Assembly: GCF_020921035.1 (NCBI RefSeq)
Contig: NC_063151.1
Span: 6,076,001 to 6,140,000, forward strand
Direction of reading: 5' to 3'
DNA length: 64,000 bases
From: Rhodamnia argentea
Lineage: Eukaryota > Streptophyta > Magnoliopsida > Myrtales > Myrtaceae
The position numbers and the translations under genes were made by a program. Shown one piece after another: positions 24,804-56,237 of this stretch. The notes below the pieces were generated by a model. The model was not told the DNA's origin. It made no database searches and saw only the letters and a program-made list of their open reading frames with translations. Position 1 is the first letter of the stretch, and the number at the start of each line of letters is the position of its first letter.

Positions 24804-25800
24804 ATGGATTGCAGGTTGGGTTCGATTCGATCTCCATTCTCTTTGTTTATCTTTAGCTATACTCATGGTGGTTTTCTTCAATTGAAAATGGCTGTTAGTT
24901 CTGTTCGCGGTCCTGGGTAAGAAGGAACGTTCAATTCCCACCGTCTTGCGTTCGCCGTCGTTTGATGCTTAGATGGTTAACGAGGGCTTGGGTCTCGATT
25001 ATGCTTATGAACATGCCAATTTGGCTCACGAGGTTGAATGCTGTTTCCCCGTGTTGGAAGATGTCGTTGCGTGGAAAGTTTTTCTCTGCGTCTTGTTTTT
25101 GTCCCCAGTGCTGTTAGGCTTGTCTTGTATCTTGAGATGGATGTGTTGTTGCTTTGCCCAATATGTCCATCTCCTTCGTGTAGTATTATATTGTTATCCA
25201 GTCATCTTTGCGTCTAGAGATTGATTTTCGAGTCCCTCTGGCTCTCCAGAGGCGGAGGCTTCGAAGTTGAAATAATGGAGGATTAAAGATTTTTATGTGT
25301 GATGTTGATCATGGAGTTAGATTAGGACAAATGAAAATGGCAAAAGTACTATACATTAGCGAGATTTAACTCTTGGGAAATTTGTTCAGAGTAGAATGGT
25401 TGTCCTTCTCTCCTCCTAATCGAAGAACTGATTTAAGTTTCTTGGCTTCATACTGTTTTCTTGCATCTATCTCTGATTGTACATCGGAATGCTCAGTGGA
25501 GGGCGGAACCTGCTTAATCAGTTTGCAGACAAAACTCCTAAAAATCGGGCCAAGGAAAATAGAGAGAGTTATCAAACTGTTAATACTTGGAACCAGCTTG
25601 GGTTTGATGAGAAGAAGGCGGCAGTTGACAAGGAGATGAAGAGAATGAATCAATTGCCTGCAAACAGCTCATATGCAACTCATCGTTTGAAGGTTCTCAA
25701 CAAGGTTTTGCAGCTAATGACAATTCAGGTGCTTGCACTTTTACTTGCAGTCGCATGCGGAATGTCCTTTGCTATTTTCGGTGGTTTTGGCTTTAATTGA
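24804..25800 (+). CDS. small tail-anchored membrane protein, function unknown
   Basis: Exon 1 is only 11 nt (24804-24814) and exon 2 is 25497-25800, giving 104 residues. The join MDC/S is supported by the donor AGGTTGGG and acceptor CTCAG. The product starts MDCSGGRNLLNQFADKTPKN, is polar and charged up to about residue 75 (Gln/Asn/Lys-rich, probably helical), and ends in one hydrophobic segment, about residues 79-101 (IQVLALLLAVACGMSFAIFG). A single C-terminal membrane segment with almost no tail suggests post-translational tail anchoring in an organelle or ER membrane. I believe it belongs to a small conserved plant family but cannot name it. Its last codons and 3' flank are duplicated in tandem (25781-26082). 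Confidence 0.8.
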
Positions 25801-26082
25801 TGAGGATCATAAGCAGCATAGTTTCCAACACTTGGTTCAGCGAAGCCCTTGGTGTGCGGTGATATTGTGTTCATGAATCTTGGGTTGTTAGTCTTTCCTC
25901 CTTTTTCTCTCATTATGGAATTCGTTTGTTAGTGGTTTTGGCTTTAAATAGATGAGGATCATAAGCAGCATAGTTTCCAACACTTGGTTCAGCGAAGCCC
26001 TCGGTGCACATTGATGTTGTGTCCATTACATTGGGTCGTTAGTTTTTCCCTCCTTTATTCTTGTTGTGGAATTCATTCATTC
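25781..26082 (+). repeat. 151-bp tandem duplication over a CDS end
   Basis: Unit 1 begins GTGGTTTTGGCTTTAATTGA at 25781, which is the final codons and stop of the preceding gene. Unit 2 begins at 25932 with GTGGTTTTGGCTTTAAATAG. Both share GATGAGGATCATAAGCAGCA and GGTTCAGCGAAGCCCT. Similarity falls towards the far end of each unit. The second copy lies in the 3' UTR. Confidence 0.9.
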
Positions 26083-31841: not shown

Positions 31842-34118
31842 TGTTGTGGTTGTTTGTTTTACTTGAGTAAAGCTGATAACACCTGCCAAATGGCATAAAA
31901 TTCTGGAGACATTAGCCCAATACAACCAACGGATCGGATATCAGCCTAAGTTTTCTAGTGTATTTATAATCTTATTCCAAACCATACTAAAAGGAAACAA
32001 AGCCCGGAATTACAACCTCAATACAATGACAAGATTCACGAGAATGCCACGTACTAAGAGACGATGACAACAGCCACTCAATTTTCGTGGAACTGGGGAC
32101 TGTTTATTCTCTTTTACGAACAATTAGATCCACTTCAGACCCGAGCGGTTGTGAATTGAAAGAACTGATGCGAGTAGCATTCCTTGATTCCCAAGACTCA
32201 CCAAGCGACCTCAGCAAAAGAAAAGTTGCACACTCCCACAATCAACTGAACGAAGAGAAAGCACAAAAAAAAAAAAAAAAAAAAAAGCAAACTTCGAGCT
32301 TTGTTAGATCAGCTCTTGTCAAAGACTAAACCTAAGACTCCCTCCCGCGACGACGCGATCGATGTATTTCTCAAGTATGCAGTTAGTATTTCCAACGAGC
32401 CAGGGAACATGAATCGGACATGAACAACATCGACCCTGTTCGTACTACTACCAGCTTATCGTCGAACAAACGAGGAAGAATCGAAAAGCAGAGAACTTTC
32501 ACAACTCCTCGCTAATCGAAGTAAAGAACACTTGCCAGGAGCGAGGCACAGTCGCGTCTCGAGTTCGATGGAGCTTCAGCCTGCGATCATCGAATTGAAG
32601 TGAGACGCGAAATGACGAAAGCGACAATGCCGACGGTGGCTCTGTGTCCGTACATCCTGCAATTTTTCTTTTTGGTTCCTTTTAGTTTTAGGCAATTATC
32701 CAAAGTAAGACGACCAACGTTGTTTTTACATTTAGGTTTTGTTTGGCAAAAAATAAAACATTTAAAAAATATTTTATTAAAAAAATTATTTTTATCACTT
32801 AAAATAATTAATATACATATTTTTATTATTGATAATAATTTAAATCTGAATATTTTTGTATACATAAAAATATTTTTCGTTTATTTATTTTTACAAGTGG
32901 TTATTTTAAGAAAATATGTCTCAAACCATTCATTTTTCTCAAAATAATGGACCATTGAAAACTAATTCTCCTTAATTCACATATAATTGTATTAAGTATT
33001 TTTAAAAATAAAAAAAAATGCAAAACACAATTACCAAATGAAAGTCACGCCCAGTATACATATTTGCTAGAATAATAACCATCACTAAATCAAATAATCG
33101 TTATGCCTAGCATGATATAACTAATTATTAGCTACATCGAAACTAATAGGATTTAAGGAAGTTGAAATTCATAAATTTGTTCCCAAAATCAAAGACATGT
33201 GGATAGATGCTCTTAAAGGATTGTTCGGTGAATCGTCACACATATACGTAAAATTGTGTTATGGATGGGCTTGTCATCTCACTATAGAAAATTTCTCAGA
33301 AGACACATTTACTGGGTATAGCAGCATTAGGATAATTTCTCTCAAACGATTGCTTTAAGAGATTTTCCTAAATTAATAATCTCAACTTATACATTGTATC
33401 GCGACACGACAAATAATAAGCCATTGCAGTTCGTATCAAATCATGGATACCTTCAATTTTCAAAAGGCTACTTTCTCCTTAAATTATTTAACAAGAGTTT
33501 CGAGGAGATTTAGTTATAGAATGCTTTAGAGAAAGACCCTCTCACAAACAAAAGCTGCTGCCATTTCAATGGAAAGTATAAGTCTCCCTCAAAACACTAA
33601 TCACTAAGCAAGTTCGCAGCAGAATCAGAGAGACAGAGACATATACACTGGACTCACGAAGAAAGAGCATTCTGTAACCGAGATTTCTCTCACCAATCCA
33701 TCAAAATCGTGAAAAGTCAACCATCTCTTCAGCATCAGCTATTCATCACTTTTACAAACAACATCCAAAGGTGTACACACAATTGCACTTTGCAGAGACA
33801 AAAAGGCCAGAGAAAAGCACAAAACGACTACAGTGAAGCCCGATAAGGACGAACGGGTGTCCCAAAGTCCAGCAAAATTTTCCTCCTCCTCTGCAAATGC
33901 GAGTAATACATTGTTTGAGCTACTCCACAACACATCACATACACATCCTTCGGTCATTACTTCTTGGGTCATTACTTCTCCGAAACGGCCAACTCAAAAA
34001 ATTGTTCAGCAGACCTAATCAGTGTCCTTCAGACTGCAATAAATTTTGGTATGTCCTATTGATAAATGAAATCCTTGCCAAATCTAAGCAAAAAAATTGA
34101 CAAGGGACCAAGGACTAG
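31842..34118. other. spacer: leader of the DUF300 gene, 3' region of the LDL2-like gene
   Basis: Contains an A run (about 32266-32287), the probable upstream leader exon of the DUF300 gene near 32500-32600, and very AT-rich MITE-like sequence at about 32740-32960. From 33392 onward it is the left part of the segmental duplication, with the LDL2-like 3' UTR. Confidence 0.45.
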
Positions 34119-36557
34119 CTAGGTATGTACATTGTACTTATATCCATAGAAAAGACGATTCTTGCCCCTAAGTCTCCGGGCACTGGCAATGCTACTAATC
34201 AAGGAGTTAGCAATATTTCCAACCGCACTAAGCCCCATTAACTTCAGATAGAGTGTCTTAGTCAAGTATGATAATCTGCTGTCATCTCCCCCACTCATTA
34301 ATTGCAGGTCCTTAGCCTCTTCACGAGTCAATATTGTGTAGAGTGGCAATGGTCCATTAGTAGAGTGCTCATGGAAGCTATCTAAATTGCCACGCAAACT
34401 GAATTTATTACTGTCAAAGTTAACTCTCAATATGGCCATTGATTTTGGGTCATCATTTGAAGGATCGAAAATGACCATGAAATTCCCAAATGCTAATTCA
34501 GGCTTCAGGAACAAATCCACTAGCAAATCACTGCTTGGCCCGATATTTCTATGCACAAACTTTCTTGGAGTGGTTTCCCAATCCCTGGCAGCACGAGAAA
34601 TGTGTGAAGCTTCTTTCAACCCACTCAAGAAGGCACCATGCATGCTGGCTGGGTACTGCCTACTTGTGGCTTCCCCAGCGAAAAAAAGCCGGTTACCCAC
34701 ATTCTCTCCAAGAACGTCATAATCGCTACCAGATGAGTTCACTCTTATATGGGAATATGAGCCACAAGAAAGGGGATCGCTTCCCCATCTTGTACATATC
34801 GATTGTATGGGGTCAGGCACGTCAATGCCTTTCGGATGATATATACCTGTAACAACCAAAAATAACATCTAAAATAAGAATCGGCCCCAAAAAACAATAT
34901 AAAACAACATGATGGACATGGATTATTCTGAATGAACGGATTGAAAAGAAAAGTCCTACAGTTCTTATCTTTTAGAAAGATCAGAAGCATAAAAATAACC
35001 TAGGCAAATAAAAGCCCTTAAAGATACTTAAATACCTCTGAGTATGCTCAAAACATGACTAAGTGATGTGCATGGATCCATGTATTCAAATGCTTGGGCA
35101 GCTTCTCCGGCCACAAGTGCAATAAGTACAGGACCACCTGAAACCGTGTGATAACTATAGAACAGAAAGAACTCTCCACGGTTTTGGCCCTCTTCACTGA
35201 GACAACCAAATGTGTCCAGATCTTCTCCCCAGAAAACATGAGGAAAAACCATCGCGACTTTATTTAATAATCCAAAACCCAACCTTTCAATTGCTTCAAG
35301 CTTCCTTAGAGGTAATTCTGGCTCAAATTTTATGGTTCGTTTCTTCAAAACACCAAGCGGTACAGTGCATAGGACTGCATCTGCTTGGAACACTTGATCC
35401 CCAGCAATTACCTCAACCCCATCCTCGTTATATCTTATCATATTGACAATCTTGTTATAGAAAATGGGGACTCCTTCACTCAAAGCTTTTACCAACCTCC
35501 CATTCCCTCCGGCAAGAAAGCAATGATCGCCACTCATTTCATAAGGATCATCCTGATCCCAGTATGCTGCCGACAAATTTGAAAGACATCCAGCATTGGC
35601 ATATTCCAAGTTTGCAAAGTGCCAGTCAAGAAGTTGCATTTCCTCTCTGCTTCTCGCCACACCAAACAATTGCCTCAGCGTCTCCAAGACAGCGCCCAAA
35701 GAGATATCATGCGCAAAACCACGCTTTATTTGTCTCAATTCCATGACCTTGTCCAGCAATCTGTTAAAAATAAACTCAACCTTGGAATCGGTTTTCTCAT
35801 CAACAGGTGTGCCATCAGGTTTATACAAAGGGCATTTATCTCTGACCTTATGAAGAGGAATAGAGAGTTGCCTAGCAAGAACCCCAAGAGGATTAGCATG
35901 AATTCCTGTGATCACACTGCCACCTAGATCCACAGCTGCGAAATCGCCCTTTTGACCCATCTTTTGAGTATAGACTCTACCCCCGGGCCTATTTCTACCC
36001 TCTAGAACAAGCACCTTGAAACCAAAAGAGAGGAGCTGTCTCGCTGCTGCAAGCCCAGCAAGTCCTGCACCCACGATTATAACAGACCCTTCAACAACCT
36101 CTAAGGGCATTGGTGGCAAGATCCCATAGTTGATATACCCATTGGATAAAAGGAAATCATAGGCTGAGCCAATCAAGTGCTCGTACTCACTACTAACGGT
36201 CTCTCTTATCCTATCTTTCGACATCCACATCCTTACATTATTCCTCCACTTAGCCAGTATATGGTTCCTCACAACGATGTAGTCATTTTGCTCTTTGCCA
36301 CCCAATTGCCTCACCACTCCAGCCCGGATCTCCTCTTCGAGCAACGCATCAATCGGGAAGCCAAGAGAGATAGCCATCATGGCCTCAGTTTCGGTCTCTT
36401 TCTCCAAATCCTCCCTTGTCCTGTTCCTTTTCCTCGGGCTACTGCCCAAGTGCGTATCTATGAACTCATCAATCAAGTTCTCGTTGTAATTCTTCAGACC
36501 TGCTTTCTTTCTCAACGAACGCTTAGGAACTAAACCATCAGATAATATTCCGTCCAT
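34119..36557 (-). CDS. LDL2: lysine-specific histone demethylase, LDL2 type
   Basis: Two exons, complement(35036-36557) and complement(34119-34846), give 749 residues (Arabidopsis LDL2 is 746). The ATG chosen is that of MDGILSDGLVPKRSLRKKAG. A basic N-terminus is followed by a SWIRM domain (about 62-148, LGFPIDALLEEEIRAGVVR ... VRNHILAKW). Next is the amine-oxidase domain with the FAD dinucleotide motif GAGLAG (163-168) and GGRVYT (192-197), the catalytic-site lysine K433 in GLLNKVAMVF, and the C-terminal FAD motif NRLFFAGEATSRQYPASMHG. No tower insertion is present, as in plant homologues. It should remove H3K4me1/2 with FAD and oxygen in the nucleus. LDL1/LDL2 act with FLD in repressing FLC and other genes. 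The intron (34847-35035) splits G508. A decayed copy of the 3' part lies at 41545-42342. Confidence 0.96.
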
Positions 36558-36591
36558 CTTTGCCACCAGTTAACCGCGATCTCCCCTCACC

Positions 36592-36996
36592 CTATTGAAA
36601 AAAGATCTCTTTGGGATCCCACTCATTATCTCCATTGCGCGAACATTGAACGGGCAATCTTTTCCAAACAGACACCGAGAATGCACCAAAAGAACCACTC
36701 CCCAGCCTTTTCCATTTCAAAATGCAGCCTTCACAATCTTGGAGACAATCCACATTATCCCAGCATGTCACGTACAGAGTCAAACCCAACAAACTCCATA
36801 AATCATCAAATACTCAACAAAACCGCACTGTAATAATGGGAAAACGTCGAATCGCTCCAATGCGCCTTCATCTCCAACGAGGCTCAACAAACCTCCATTC
36901 TTCAAAATATTGAGATTTAACGAAACCGGAATGCGAATCACCAAACTTCTTCATGCAAGAAAGACGCAAGGACACAAGAATTGGGGAATCACTCAC
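36592..36996 (-). promoter_or_regulatory. 5' UTR intron of the LDL2-like gene
   Basis: Donor CAAG|GTGAGT (36996-36995) and acceptor TTTTTTCAATAG| (36592) remove 405 bases of leader. The spliced leader would contain a four-codon upstream frame, MAQG then stop, that spans the junction: its ATG is at 37006-37004 and its stop lies just inside the second exon. This is inferred from splice motifs. Confidence 0.55.
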
Positions 36997-37053
36997 CTTG
37001 GGCCATATTCAGTGGGAAATTAGGTAAAATTTTGGCCGAACTGCCAGGTGCGA

Positions 37054-37063
37054 GTTAGGGTTT
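37054..37063 (-). promoter_or_regulatory. telo-box upstream of the LDL2-like gene
   Basis: On the minus strand it reads AAACCCTAAC, the plant telo-box, about 50 bases upstream of the first leader exon's ATG. Telo-boxes are common near start sites of growth-related plant genes and can recruit TRB proteins and Polycomb. The functional role here is inference. Confidence 0.5.
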
Positions 37064-38469
37064 ATCGAGGGGAAACGAGTTGACTCAGCTAAAATCGAAA
37101 ATTGGCTTGGAGGAAACTGAAGGATTCATGTGGGCCGACTAATATCTATGAAGTGGGCCTCAATGAATGGGAATGCATTCTTTCTTGATTTCATGTTGGG
37201 CCAATTAAAGAAACAAAATCCAATTAGATCATTGCCTTTTTTTTTTTTTTTTTTTTTTCCTATCCAATCCAAGCAAGATTATTTCCTAAGTTCATTACTC
37301 ATTCCATTAAATATGGTGAGGTAAAAATTGAAAAAAAGGAAATTGGTGCAGTTATCATTTCAAATTGATAACAAACCCACTGATCAAACTATCTCTTAAG
37401 TTTCGATGTGCAACCGATAAGATAATTCGAAAATCGGGTATCTTGCGTGATGAAAAGCGAGCAAATGATTTTACATTCAAATGTAAAATCGGTTAGGGAA
37501 CATATCACAAGGATAATATGACTTGTACTACGTCATTCGTGTAATTAATCAATAAAGGACCTCCAAACCATGAAATTAATTAAATTTTTGATTTGTCAAT
37601 AACACGGGGTTTTTAAGCTAGTAATTAATCTAGTGATTGGATAAATGGAATTTGATCTAAGTCAACTTGGTCTTTGCCTTTGAATATACCAAATTCATAT
37701 CTTCCAAATTTTAGCATTAATAGGCCGTTAATCACCACCCGTCATTTTAATAACGTGACATGAGAAAATCCTTCTGCATGATATAGAAGTGGGTTTGTTG
37801 AATAATAATATGGTAATGCATTAAGTGGACTATTCTTCTATGATATATCTTCATTTTCTTTTGGGGGGATTTTGGAAGGCTTGATCTAAGTTTTGAGCGC
37901 ACATGTGGTACGACTTGTGAAAGTCAACTACAGCTAGGACAAATGACTAATCACGGGCTCAACAACTTGTAATTCTAAAATAAAGAGAGAGCGAATTGAA
38001 TTGGATGCGATGGGGGTGATACATTTCGAACGGTCGGTTCATCACGGAAGATAGAAACCATACACGCCTAGAAGTGGAGCTTGCACAAGCTGAGGGCGTT
38101 GAGTAGACTGTAAGGTGTGTGTTTCTCTCGGCCACGGTCTGGCCTCGAAGCAGTGTTTTGGCCCGGTTGCTTGCTTGGCCGGAAAGGTCACGAGGCATGT
38201 GACCGCCCCTCCGCGCCGTCTTCTCTTGCGTTGTAAGCCACATAATCAGACGCCAGAAATCTGTAGTAGCGTGAGAGATGAGCATTATGCAAGCCCCAAG
38301 GCATTGACCCAGATCCTAAAATTGCACCTCTGTCCTAAAAGTATTCAAGCCCACCGACAGTCACATGTTCCTGAATTCCAAGTGATATCTTAGACTATTT
38401 CGAGCTTGGATTCGCCGAAGTTAGGCAAGACAGATCCAAGACAGCGCCACTTGTGGCTAGACGAAACTC

Positions 38470-38476
38470 TATAAAT
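38470..38476 (+). promoter_or_regulatory. TATA box of the root-cap protein gene
   Basis: TATAAAT in the context CTCTATAAATGGC, 93 bases before the ATG at 38563, which fits a leader of about 60 bases. Confidence 0.65.
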
Positions 38477-38562
38477 GGCGCAGAGCAGAACATAGTACAG
38501 GCATTGGGGAGTTGAGTTCCGACCGAAGCATCTTCCTCTTTCCATAATCAAAGCGAAGCGAG

Positions 38563-39833
38563 ATGAAGTTGTCGAGAATCTATGGCTTTCTTGCCACCGT
38601 GTTGCTGATTGTGTGTGGTTTGGCACGAGTCCATGGAGCCACCATTTCATGCCTTAGCAGAGGCAGTCCATGCTTCCTCAAGAAGATGACTTGCCCTGAT
38701 GAATGTCCCTCCAATTCACCCAGCAATTCTAAGGCCAAGGTCTGCTACGTCAACTGCAATTCGCCAATCTGCAAGCCCGAGTGCAAGAGTAATGTCACTT
38801 TCCTAGACCTCTCTCGATCCTCTAGCACTTCACATGTCATCTCTTTTCGGCAATCGAATGCTGCACATTTGGTAGCCTGATGGTATTGTTTAGTGTTTCA
38901 TTAGTCTGATGCTATTCTAGATTTGTGCTCTTGTTTCAAATGTATGCAATAAGGAACGTGAAAGTTTCTTTTAGCACTTGCCAAGATCATTTACTTCTAT
39001 TTGGTAACTTTACTATGTTTTCCGCGTTAATGGTTGCAGACAAGAAACCAAACTGCAATGCTCCAGGTGCTGCATGCTTGGACCCCAGGTTCATCGGTGG
39101 AGACGGCATCGTCTTCTACTTCCACGGCAAGAGCGATGAGCATTTCAGCTTAGTCTCTGATCGGTATATTCAGATCAATGCCCATTTCATTGGCCTCCGG
39201 CCTGCCAGCCGGCCCCGAGACTACACGTGGATCCAAGCCCTCGGAGTTCTCTCAGGCTCTGAGAGCTTTTCTATCGAGGCCATCCGAGCTGCCAAATGGG
39301 ACTCCGAGATGGATCATCTAAGGTTCTCTTACAATGGGAATGAACTAACCGTGCCAGAGGTAACTCCCTCCACTTGGCATTCCCCTGAAGGTCACTTCAG
39401 GGTAGAGAGATCGACAAGCAAGAACAGTGTCGCGATCACTATCCAAGGGGTTGCGGAGATTTCAGTCAATGTCGTGCCTGTGACAAAAGAAGACGATCGG
39501 ATCCATAACTACCAAATTCCTTCTGATGACTGCTTTGCTCACTTGGAAGTGCAATTCAGGTTCTTTGGCCTCTCTCCAAAGGTCGAGGGAGTGCTCGGCA
39601 GGACGTACCAGCCCAATTTTGAGAACCAGGCAAAGCCGGGGGTCGCGATGCCGGTCGTGGGTGGAGAGGACAGGTACAGGACTTCGTCACTCCTCTCGGC
39701 GGATTGCGCAGCTTGCATCTTCTCTCCACTCACGCACCTTGATCAAAAGCGGGATTCGATGGGGATGGAGCATAGTATTCTGGACTGCACTGGGGGTGCT
39801 ACTAGTGGGAACGGCATCATGTGCAGGAGATGA
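38563..39833 (+). CDS. secreted root-cap domain protein (LEA-like)
   Basis: Exons 38563-38788 and 39040-39833 give 339 residues. The donor AAGA|GTAATG and acceptor TTGCAG join as ECK-NKKPNCNAPG. The N-terminus MKLSRIYGFLATVLLIVCGL is a signal peptide with likely cleavage near A26. A Cys-rich segment (about 29-90: CLSRGSPC, CPDEC, CYVNC, CKPEC, NCNAPGAAC) is followed by the root-cap domain (Pfam Root_cap, formerly LEA-like), with DPRFIGGDGIVFYFHGKSDE, the FSLVSD motif, SPKVEGVLGRTYQPNF, and the terminal PVVGGEDRYRTSSLLSADC. Family members are extracellular, many of them root- or pollen-expressed, with unknown biochemistry. The gene is divergent from the LDL2-like demethylase, and both were copied together (see 41545-42690). 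No truncation is seen. Confidence 0.92.
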
Positions 39834-40646
39834 TTGTGGGCCTTTGAGTTTGCTTGGTCAGAAACGATCAATCAAGAAAAGTTTCAATAAGCTTTAGCGA
39901 ATAACAAGGTGGTTTGGTTTCTCGTTGCCCCTGCCAAAATTTCAATGTTTCTGATGTAGTTCCAGAGCTCTTCTGAGTCCGACAAGAGTTTTGTTTTTCA
40001 GTGTGTCCGAGATCAACTGAATTGAAAGAATCGACTTTTTATCTTTCTACAATAGTAGACCCACCTTGCAAAATTGAGCACAGTCCATTTTCCCGCAGGA
40101 TTGCTTCGACTTTGTCGTGTATCATCTATTGACATCGTTAGAAGTTGCGAAAGACTCATAAATTAGTGCCCGCCAAGCGAAAAAAGCAACCTATCGTACC
40201 AGTCTTCCTAGGTCGGCGGCTAAAGCACCCCTTCATCCTCATTTCCATACGTACCATCAAAGAGAGAAATCTTATTAATTGTTGTCCCGAGTTTTTATCG
40301 ATCGGCCATTTCATTTGATAAGAGTTTCATTTATCTTAACCCCCAATAAAGAGCAAATCTTGCATGCATTCAACACAAGTGAGCTCACTCTATCTTGAAT
40401 CAAGTAAATTCCTTATTGACTTTTTTAAATACTTAACGGCTAAGATGAAGTGAACTCACATGATCTAGGCGATACATGGATTGTTTGCGATAAACAATAA
40501 CCACGTGATCTAGTAAGAGGGCTTCAGTGGGATTTCTTAGTATCTCTGGCTTAAAGTTATTCTATTACATCAATGGTTATGTGGCTATGTATGGGTCATT
40601 GTGTGCTCAAATGCATGATTCACTCGTGCTAGAACCATGTGCATTG
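39834..40646. other. 3' region of the root-cap gene, right part of duplication unit 1
   Basis: Non-coding. It aligns in order with 42700-44351 (for example AGACCCACCTTGCAAAATTG against AGACCCAACTTGCAAAACTG). The plus frame starting at 40527 is not supported by the copy. Confidence 0.6.
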
Positions 40647-40943
40647 TGTAACGGCCCAGAGGCTTTTAAAGCAAAATTTTGTGAGGAATTGTCCAAAATA
40701 ACCGAAGGAACCTCAAAATTTTTATGGACCTTTCTTGAGTACTCTAAAACCTTGTTGAGGGTAATATAGAAAATGTACACAAGGGCGTTCTAGAGTATTC
40801 TTCGGGGTAGATTGGAAAATATATCTATATTCTAGAGACTTCTCATCAATCTCCGCCATTGGATTGGGTTGGAGATCAAATGGTTGTAATTAGAGGTGTT
40901 CTTGTATTAATAGGGATCCACTCCTTTAGAGAGGCCTCTTACA
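40647..40943. repeat. possible solo LTR at the duplication junction
   Basis: This sequence begins TGTAACGGCCC and ends CTCTTACA, is absent from the matching places in both duplication units, and lies exactly between them. The TGTAA/TTACA ends are inverted, as in an LTR. The flanking CATTG (left) and ACTG-containing right flank do not make a clean 5-bp duplication, so the assignment is tentative. If an LTR, it is a fossil remnant with no coding part. Confidence 0.35.
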
Positions 40944-41544
40944 CTGTACGGCGACATGACAAAGGATATGTTGAGAAATGCCACACCGCAGCTCGTATCA
41001 AATCCTCCTTATAAGTATACCTTCAATTTTCAAAAGAAAGGTTGTGATTTGAAAATTATAGTACTTTCTCATTAAATTATAATACATATAATGGACATTA
41101 ACAAGTCATGAAGAAAGAGCGTTCTGTGATGGAGATTTTGCTCGCCTAATCATCAAAATTGTGATAATTCAACCATCTCTTCATCATCATCTATTCATCG
41201 CTTTTACAAAACATCCAAAAGTATACAAAAAATTGCATTTTGTGGAGATAAAAAAAGCCAGAGAAAAGCACAAAAGCGCCTACTATAAACCTGATCAGGA
41301 CAAACGGGTGCCCCGAGAGTACAATCAAATTTTCCTCCTTCCGTGTGAATGCGAGTAATACATTGTTTGAGCTACTCCACAACACATCACATACACATTT
41401 TTCAGTCTTTGAAATCGGCCATGATCAGATGCAAAAAAATTGTTCAGCAAATCAATCACCTAATTGTCTGCAATAAATTTTGGTGTCTTGTAAAGGAAAT
41501 CCTAAAGAAAAAAATTGATAGGGTACCAAGGGCCAACTAAGTAT

Positions 41545-42342
41545 GTACATCTCTTATGTCCACAGGAAAGACGATTCTTACGCCTAACTCTCCCTCAGTC
41601 ATTAATTGCAGGTCCCCTCTTCACGCGGTCCACTAGTAGAGTACTCATGAAAGCTATCTAAATTGCCAGGCAAACATTTTCTTACTATCAAAGTTGACTC
41701 TCAATATGGTCATTAATTTTGGGCCAAGGATTGAAAATGACCGTGAAATTCCCAAATGCTAAATCAAGCTTAAGGAACAAATCTACCACCAAATTGTTGT
41801 TTGGCCGATATTTCCGTGCACAAACTTTCTTGGAGTGGTTTCCAATCCCTGACAGTACGAAAAATGTGTGAAGCTTCTTTCAAGCCACTCAAGAAAGCAC
41901 CATGCATGCTGGCTGGGTACCACTTAATTGTGGCTTCCCAGCAAAAAAAAGCTGGTTCCCACACTCTCCAAGTATGTCATAATCGCTACCAGGCGAGTTC
42001 ACTCTTATATGGGAATATGAACCAAAAAGGAATTGGGACCGCCTCCCCATCTTGTACATATTGATTGTATGGGCTCAGTCACATCAATATCTTTCGGATT
42101 TCTGAGCAAACAGATTGAAAAGAAAAGCCCTATGGTTCGTCCTTTAAAAAAATTAGCTACATAAAAATAAGCTAGGCAAGTCAAAACCCACTCAAAGTAC
42201 CTTTGAGTATGCTCAACATATGACTGAAGTAAAGTGTGTAGATCGACGTATTCGAATGGTTGGCAGCTTCTCTCGCCACAAGTGCAACAAGTATGAACCA
42301 CCTGAAACTGTGCGATAACTACATAATAGAAAGAACTCTTCA
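41545..42342 (-). pseudogene. decayed 3' copy of the LDL2-like gene
   Basis: This corresponds to 34119 to about 35180 of the intact gene. Matches include the minus-strand reading of HGAFLSGLKEASHI and DPIQSICTRWG. Frames are broken by small indels, the SWIRM and FAD-binding halves are absent, and it ends abruptly at the junction with root-cap sequence. It cannot make an oxidase. Confidence 0.9.
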
Positions 42343-42690
42343 CATAATTGAATTGCTATCACTATTCGGGAAGTGGCGATTTCTGTCACCGTTATGCCCA
42401 TGACAAAAGAAGACAATCAAGTCCACAACTACCAAATTCCTTCCGAAGACTGCTTCGCTTACTTGAAAGTTCAATTTAAATTCTTTGGCCTCTCTCCGAA
42501 AGTTGAGGGAGTGGTTGGCAAGATGTACTAGCCTGATTTGAAGAACCTGGCCAAGCTGGCGGTCAAGATGCCGGTCATGCGCGGAGAGGACAAGTGTTGG
42601 ACTTGGTCGTGCAGCTTGCATCTTCTAGCCAACCAGGAGTCTTATCACAAACTGTCCTGGGAGGAACGACATTGTGTGCAAGAGATGGTT
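42343..42690 (+). pseudogene. decayed 3' copy of the root-cap gene
   Basis: This corresponds to about 39431-39833. It still reads TKEDNQVHNYQIPSEDCFAY and FFGLSPKVEGVVGKMY before an in-frame stop. It lacks the signal peptide, the Cys-rich region and the first half of the domain, and is joined directly to the LDL2-like copy. Confidence 0.9.
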
Positions 42691-42809
42691 GTGAGACTTT
42701 GAGCTTGCTTGGTCAAGACATCAATTAAGAAAAGTTTCAATAAGCTTAGGGAATAATAAGGTGGTCTCGTGATGCTCCTGCCAAAATTTCAATGTTTTTT
42801 TGTAGTTAC

Positions 42810-43350
42810 AAGGAAAAATAGTAAAAGTCTTAAACTTATTACAATTATCCCAATTCAGTCTTAATTCTTTTTTTTTTTTTTGTGATTCACTCTTAAACAT
42901 TTTCAATTGTGCCAATTCAGTACATCCGGCCGGCGCCGGCATGGACTTTGGCCAGCACCGCACCGTTTGATGACATAATATTTTGATATTTGTTGGAATC
43001 TTTTGAATTATTTTATTTTATTTTTCCTTTTTTTTGCTTCTCTTTCTTTCTTTTTCTTCCCTCTTCTTCCTTCAACCAGAGACACGATCGACGAGGTCGA
43101 ACCGCCAACCTCAGGTAAAGCTCACCCCCGTCGGCCACTAGAGAGGCTCACCCTTGCCGAAGAGTAAAGAAAGAAAAAAAAAATGAAAAAAATATTAAAA
43201 GATTATATCGCCGGCGGGCATCCACGTCAGCCCCGACAAACCAAAATTGGTCGATTGAACCGAATTGACATAATTACAAAAAATTATAATCGCATCGGTA
43301 AAAAAAAAAAAGGACTAAATTGTCACAATCGCAATATGATTAGACCCATT
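42810..43350. mobile_element. family B repeat, copy 2, inside duplication unit 2
   Basis: The left arm reads GTCTTAAACTTATTACAATT with CCAATTCAGTCTTAATTC. The right arm carries CGAATTGACATAATTACAAA and, further out, AATTGTCACAATCGCAATAT. The core is GC-rich (43060-43160, with GAGGTCGAACCGCC and GGCTCACCC words). It is absent from the corresponding place in unit 1 (around 39960), so it was inserted after the duplication. Borders are approximate. Confidence 0.65.
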
Positions 43351-44351
43351 ATCACTTGAGTCCAACAAGAGTTTTCATTGCAGTGTACAAGTGATTTTTT
43401 TTTTTTTTGGTCGAAGGTGTACTAGCGATTAATTTAACTAAAAGTATTGGCTTTCATCTTTTTACAATGGTAGACCCAACTTGCAAAACTGAGTATACTC
43501 CATTCTAATATCCACTCTAGATTCCCAGGATCTGTGAACTGTTACATCTTGATGTGATTTCACGTGCTCAAGAATTTTGTATTTCCCTCTATAGGAATTG
43601 CATATCTCGTCGATCCATTATGCTGCCTGCCGAACTCAAGTAGTATCTCCATATTCGACCAAACCACATGTTTTGAGCCAAAATAGTCAACGTAGATAGC
43701 AAATTCTTTCCCCGCAGATTTCAATCGTTTTTTTTAATTTTTTGACTTTGCCGTGCATCATTTATTAACATGGTTAGAAGTTGCAAAAGATTCTTAAATT
43801 AGTACGCGGCACACGGGGAAACAACAACCTATCGCCATCTCATAGCCGTTCCAAGGGCGGCCGCTCAAGCACCCGTTCATCTTCTCTCTGTTTGACACCC
43901 CTGTTCATCGAGAAATCTCATCAAAGCGATACCCCCGGAATTTTCTTCATCGTCGATCATTTGATGCGAACATCCCACTCATTTGTACCCTCAAATAGAA
44001 GATCAAGTCACGCATGCACTCAACGCACACAAAGCTCGCCCCATCTTTTAGATCCCGCGACTCCCGAGAGATCTTTCGACATTTATTTCTAAGATAAAGC
44101 GAGGTAACGTGACACCGATCCCGCACGAGAAACTTTCCTAACAGACCATAACCACGGTTTAGCAAGAGGGCTTTGATGGGATTTCTTAATTTGCCTAATA
44201 TCACCTATGTATGGTTTCATCGCATCCCAACGTACGCGCTCGGGACGACGGGGTTGTTGACACGGCAGCGACGGGAAACAACGTTGCGGGCACGAGTGTC
44301 TGTATGCTCAGATGCATGAATCACTTGTGCTTGGACGGACCATTCTCATTG

Positions 44352-56025: not shown

Positions 56026-56237
56026 CTTTTCAAGTGATTTTTGTCTGGTTAAAAGAATGGTCGATAGACGCTGATTTCGACAGATGCGGCTTTTGCCACG
56101 AAGCGGCTATTTCCTATCGTGAAATGTGGAACTTTTCAAGTGAATTTTGTCTGGTTAAAAGAATGGTCGATAAACGCCGATTTCGACAGATGTGGCTTTT
56201 GCCACGAAGCGGCTATTTCCTATCGTGAAATGTGGAA
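56026..56237 (+). repeat. 106-bp tandem duplication
   Basis: Unit 1 is 56026-56131 and unit 2 is 56132-56237. Both start CTTTTCAAGTGA and contain GGTTAAAAGAATGGTCGATA, GGCTTTTGCCACGAAGCGGC and TATTTCCTATCGTGAAATGT. Only a handful of differences are visible, so it is fairly recent. Confidence 0.95.

Follow-up and report, generated by a model that had tools for sequence, protein, structure and literature searches.

This analysis concerns a 64,000-nt stretch of the Rhodamnia argentea genome (C2:6076001-6140000, where C2 is contig NC_063151.1), which is called the window below. The assembly that was searched comprises 346.7 Mb in 74 contigs. The window contains a block of two genes, one for an LSD1-type demethylase and one of the Root_cap family, which is complete at 33390-40646 (unit 1) and is followed by a decayed copy at about 40940-44351 (unit 2). 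Both units were delimited by comparing the window with itself using the Basic Local Alignment Search Tool (BLAST) and by aligning the edges. Our results confirmed that the demethylase/root-cap block has undergone a real and ordinary tandem duplication, with pseudogenisation of one copy. Among the papers listed by the literature searches, no title or abstract start concerned this locus.

The demethylase gene of unit 1 lies on the minus strand and was modelled with two exons. Exon 1 (35036-36557) carries SWIRM and amine oxidase domains and ends at a GTATTT donor; exon 2 (34119-34846) contains the stop codon, with a TTACAG acceptor just upstream on the minus strand. The model encodes 749 aa, its sole stop is at the end, and the intron has a GT donor and an AG acceptor. 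In Pfam, the open reading frame (ORF) at 35028-36569 matched both Amino_oxidase (5.6e-56) and SWIRM (1.1e-13), the two domains sharing one open frame as in LDL/LSD1 genes, and the ORF at 34119-34868 matched the remainder of the oxidase domain (Amino_oxidase, 1.3e-17). The best PDB match was lysine-specific histone demethylase 1A (7.5e-87), and 32 distinct sequences fell under 1e-20. The assembly holds seven SWIRM matches, three of which (the window, C5:4.23 Mb and C2:29.57 Mb) are in genes that match the oxidase part. By elimination, the unit-1 gene is putatively LDL2-like.

The Root_cap gene (38563-39833, plus strand; two exons by eye from Pfam and the ORFs) is divergent from the demethylase gene and 2 kb away from it. 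Its first ORF (38548-38880) has a signal-peptide-like start and no Pfam match, and the second (38910-39833) matched Root_cap at 2.8e-27. There are 14 Root_cap matches above cut-off in the assembly, the remnant in unit 2 included. Three consecutive Root_cap genes spaced about 8-9 kb apart (L032, L033 and L034; C2:28.24-28.26 Mb) are the top-scoring paralogs of the window gene. The other two SWIRM-oxidase genes also lie 0.5-1.3 Mb from Root_cap genes (L066 and L042 at C5:4.23 and 4.75 Mb; L067 and L032-L034 at C2:29.57 and 28.25 Mb), and this proximity may be due to chance or to remnants of an old genome duplication.

A preliminary description of this DNA had claimed that a second unit follows the first in the same gene order, and had proposed a self dot-plot. 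The self-comparison by BLAST gave two same-strand collinear diagonals, which bore out the claim: the two copies are neighbours and agree in strand and order. Ten ordered matches join unit 1 to unit 2, with E-values from 6e-158 to 8e-5. On the demethylase side these are 33426-33466/40988-41036, 33654-34177/41106-41593 (77% with gaps), 34285-34325/41589-41625, 34351-34837/41627-42099 (86%) and 34926-35179/42100-42343 (78%). On the root-cap side they are 39432-39964/42355-42810 (70% with gaps), 40011-40089/43427-43504, 40105-40240/43741-43884, 40494-40539/44145-44188 and 40600-40630/44301-44331.

The block was also queried against the assembly in three parts. The demethylase part (33392-36392) gave seven matches: one to unit 1, three to pieces of unit 2 and three to paralogs at 66-70% (C5 and C2 29.57 Mb). 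The root-cap gene (38548-39833) gave eleven, of which nine were to paralogs (69-76%) and the other two to unit 1 and unit 2, and the root-cap 3' flank (39834-40640) matched the two units and nothing else. Gene paralogs aside, no third copy of the block was found in the assembly with this three-part query. The demethylase pieces are 84-89% identical between the units versus 66-75% to the paralogs, so that in these pieces each unit resembles the other more than it does the paralogs, and the searched flanks match each other alone. The margin is narrow for the root-cap piece, with the units about 79% alike versus 74-78% for unit 1 against paralogs.

The largest difference between the units is a deletion. 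Unit 2 has nothing that corresponds to 35180-39431 (4252 bp), a loss that removed the demethylase 5' part, the intergenic region and the root-cap 5' half and left two 3' gene remnants head to head. The preliminary description had placed a loss of about 4.2 kb in the middle of unit 2, with the demethylase 3' end against the root-cap 3' half near 42343; in our alignment homology stops at 42343 and resumes at 42355. The junction holds 11 bases of its own (42344-42354). Within 33-46 kb, the longest stretch of them that recurs measures 9 nt and lies at 37994, in unit 1 and inside the interval that unit 2 lacks. Two smaller scars were observed. At 41589-41593, in the demethylase 3' coding end, 112 bp were deleted between TCTCC repeats (34173-34177 and 34285-34289 in unit 1), and at 42096-42100 a deletion of 86-88 bp between GGAT repeats (34834-34837 and 34920-34923 in unit 1) removed the exon-2 splice acceptor. 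Filler joining and short-repeat deletions are known outcomes of break repair in plants.

What is left of the genes in unit 2 is disabled. The demethylase pseudogene (41594-42343, minus strand) consists of parts of exon 2, the intron and a 3' piece of exon 1; gaps in the alignments shift its frame. The root-cap pseudogene (42355-42705, plus strand) retains the 3' half; it is interrupted by a TAG within the Pfam domain and has gaps of 17 bp and 48 bp.

Unit 2 also contains sequences that unit 1 lacks. The preliminary description had named a family B insertion, and this insertion is real: the segment at about 42811-43345 is missing from unit 1 and dispersed in the assembly. It resembles a miniature inverted-repeat transposable element (MITE), with weak terminal inverted arms at 42831-42931 and 43249-43342 (64% alike over 101 columns) and many dispersed copies, at least 97 scored matches including itself (40 scored of 1311 candidates). 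In several copies both arms found a match, the two lying on opposite strands, and some of the matches are the two arms of one copy. No clear target-site duplication was seen by eye at its edges, where it may have decayed. A 203-bp segment (43505-43707), absent from the preliminary description, is found in unit 2 alone, and nothing else in the assembly matched it. It was either gained by unit 2 or lost from unit 1; in the latter case decay would extend to unit 1 too.

The divergence of the units was quantified as Kimura two-parameter (K2P) distances, with exon borders up to 8 bases off. The noncoding distance was 0.186±0.016 over 971 sites, a value biased low because it is based on BLAST-aligned blocks alone. 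The distances were 0.123±0.016 for exon 2, 0.185±0.041 for the exon-1 piece and 0.257±0.033 for the root-cap piece. The exon-2 value is below the noncoding one, which fits continued constraint on one copy. A global alignment of the units had also been made, but it was forced end to end, paired unrelated inserts and raised two flanks to inflated values of 0.43 and 0.63, and block-wise BLAST pairs were preferred. The noncoding distance means that the duplication is old. With 7e-9 (as in Arabidopsis) or about 2e-9 (as in woody plants) substitutions per site per year, it would correspond to roughly 13 or 45 million years, in order of magnitude only.

Such a distance also bears on whether unit 2 could be an assembly artefact or an unpurged haplotig. 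Allelic copies within one assembly usually differ far less than these units, which disagree at 16% of the noncoding sites aligned, have 51 gaps between them in the forced global alignment and carry private insertions and deletions. Nothing in the sequence comparison favoured an artefact, and we regard one as hardly credible.

To assign the coding changes to one copy or the other, paralogs were used as outgroups; this presumes that the units are each other's nearest relatives, in line with their collinear flanks. For the root-cap piece, where three paralogs agreed, 28 of the 54 differences were placed on unit 2 and 2 on unit 1, with 24 unassigned; against single paralogs the unit 2 to unit 1 split was 38:6, 41:6 and 31:13. 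The unit-2 piece is 65-71% identical to the three root-cap paralogs and the unit-1 piece 74-78%. For the demethylase exon-1 piece, with two paralogs, 15 of 27 differences fell on unit 2, 1 on unit 1, and 11 were unassigned. For exon 2, with one distant paralog, the numbers were 16, 10 and 6 of 32.

Differences at the first, second and third codon positions, counted on BLAST-aligned pairs of the two units, were 18/187, 22/190 and 23/188 in exon 2, 8/47, 7/48 and 8/47 in exon 1, and 19/110, 21/113 and 31/111 in the root-cap piece. An earlier count (exon 2 29/185, 28/187, 33/188; root cap 24/111, 23/110, 32/110) was dropped for misaligned columns at the 3' ends, and the conclusion was unchanged. 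Most of the assigned coding changes are on unit 2 and there is little codon-position bias, which together with the disabling changes is the pattern of a pseudogene, with one constrained and one free copy.

These neutral-looking coding remnants weigh against a different reading, in which unit 2 has a function as a noncoding locus and might, for instance, yield RNA antisense to the intact demethylase gene. Its promoter would be the TATA-like TATTAATAGGG at 40905-40915 in the sequence between the units; this motif points rightwards, the direction in which RNA from unit 2 would be antisense to the demethylase. Unit 2 also has six perfect stretches of 21-51 nt in common with unit 1; however, some such stretches are expected at this divergence, and no Rfam match at gathering thresholds was found in 30-48 kb. 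We therefore judge a functional unit 2 to be very improbable. In the same vein, RNA running rightwards from the promoter-like end through unit 2 could conceivably feed small RNAs onto the intact demethylase (antisense) and the root-cap gene (sense), so that the decayed copy would regulate its parent, and this idea is equally far-fetched. Unit 2 most likely does nothing, and unit 1 supplies the function of the pair, whatever that is.

The edges of the units were examined next to the question of how the duplication arose. By eye, the left edges of homology are near 33390 and 40940 (ACATTGTATCGCGACACGACAAA versus ACACTGTACGGCGACATGACAAA), and the right edges are at 40646 and 44351. Beyond them, 8 of 30 bases agree on the left (ungapped) and 4 of 30 on the right. 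The preliminary description had noted CATTG at 33392-33396, 40642-40646 and 44347-44351 and suggested a microhomology-mediated duplication. The motifs are where it placed them, near the homology edges, but the mechanism was not established by them. The left edge of unit 2 itself has CACTG, at 40942, two bases off the 40944 given before. The plus strand of the window has 97 occurrences of CATTG. When two window positions are drawn at random, their surroundings of ±8, 10 or 15 bp have some 5-mer in common in 13%, 21% or 45% of draws. Moreover, the right-edge CATTG of the two units is not independent, because the two sites are homologous. CAT-like letters are seen by eye near the same place in some relatives of the repeat at the joint, and the CATTG there may belong to that repeat.

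The joint (40641-40939, plus strand) is a fragment, about 300 bp long, of a diverged dispersed repeat, and it matches eight other places in the assembly at 69-77% identity. It starts with TGTAACGG, which like TATTAATAGGG resembles a feature of long terminal repeats (LTRs). The LTR-like sequence that the preliminary description saw at the joint is a piece of a dispersed repeat with LTR-like features, and an LTR is plausible but not proven. No proper LTR pair was found among seven stretches from six loci, where only the C4 locus had direct copies, which are 3.4-3.5 kb apart and 65% alike and in which the repeat extends past the joint homology. Among seven relatives the match starts at 40640-40647, where unit 1 ends, in four, and at 40692-40709 in three.

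If CATTG microhomology had mediated the duplication, the repeat would have been inserted later at the joint, and a 5-base CATTG/CACTG target duplication around it would suit LTR insertion. A landing exactly at the joint would be a coincidence, however, and the 3' end of the joint copy seems shortened compared with five of the seven relatives. With the mismatch at the left edge of unit 2 and the chance sharing of 5-mers, this course of events appears unlikely.

Alternatively, the repeat may have taken part in the duplication, through a break in or at it or through capture of a piece at end joining. It sits between the units. When five of its relatives, L009-L013, are aligned with one another, those alignments in which the 3' end is covered reach 40941-40975 in joint coordinates, 13-47 nt past 40928, the limit of those with the joint copy. 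Alignments with L014 or L015 end at 40892-40929, which blurs the 3' end of the family. No copy of the repeat shows up at the outer edges, where loci L001 and L016 gave the known unit match alone, and a later insertion with a secondary deletion may have occurred instead. Participation of the repeat is a tentative possibility.

Taken together, an old local tandem duplication of the gene pair followed by pseudogene decay of the second copy is very likely the history of this locus. The duplication would have copied about 7.25 kb with the head-to-head demethylase/Root_cap pair, presumably at a break, through end joining or an unequal exchange. A study on mammalian genomes concludes that new tandem duplications there can be accounted for by end joining where the broken ends protrude (PMC5730883). 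In unit 2, the 4.25-kb deletion with its 11-base filler would then have taken away the demethylase 5' part and the root-cap 5' half together with the intergenic region, where both promoters should lie. The unit would also have acquired frame shifts, a stop and short deletions bounded by 4-5 bp repeats, a MITE-like element would have been inserted, and the deletion scars probably come from end joining. As for the order of events given in the preliminary description, the deletion and the insertion most simply post-date the duplication because unit 1 has neither, but the order between those two is not readable.

Several observations weigh against this history. The duplication itself left no clear signature. 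The root-cap K2P exceeds the noncoding one, unlike the prediction of a single neutral rate, and beyond the downward bias of the noncoding value we have no explanation for it. The root-cap differences lean to third positions (31/111), and the exon-2 polarisation is only 16 to 10. The root-cap piece of unit 1 is 77.9% identical to L033, nearly as close as to unit 2, so it is their collinearity and flanks that mark the units as sisters. Finally, a perfect run of 51 nt (33896-33946/41348-41398) lies in the demethylase 3' flank, where the alignment is otherwise 84% (P about 0.008 for the flank and 0.09 for the whole alignment); in an assembly search it matched the two units alone.

Beyond annotation these results have little import: 41.6-42.7 kb should not be annotated as extra demethylase or root-cap genes. 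The locus clearly illustrates how one deletion across the intergenic region can disable a duplicated pair of divergent genes. The window has other short repeats, namely an inverted pair at 856-967 and 1076-1187 (96%) and direct pairs at 56026-56237 (96%) and 25781-26074 (86%).

Compared with known systems, the unit-1 demethylase gene resembles LSD1-like (LDL/FLD) histone demethylase genes in combining SWIRM with a flavin amine oxidase, and differs from them in having one intron within the amine-oxidase part. The root-cap gene of unit 1 has the whole Pfam domain of its family (PF06830). The locus as a whole corresponds to a tandem segmental duplication with a pseudogenised copy: the copies are adjacent and on the same strand, one is complete, and the other has deletions, frame shifts and a repeat insertion. 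There is no essential difference from known cases of this kind, except that the block here happens to hold two unrelated divergent genes. It is ordinary genome decay, nothing new in kind.

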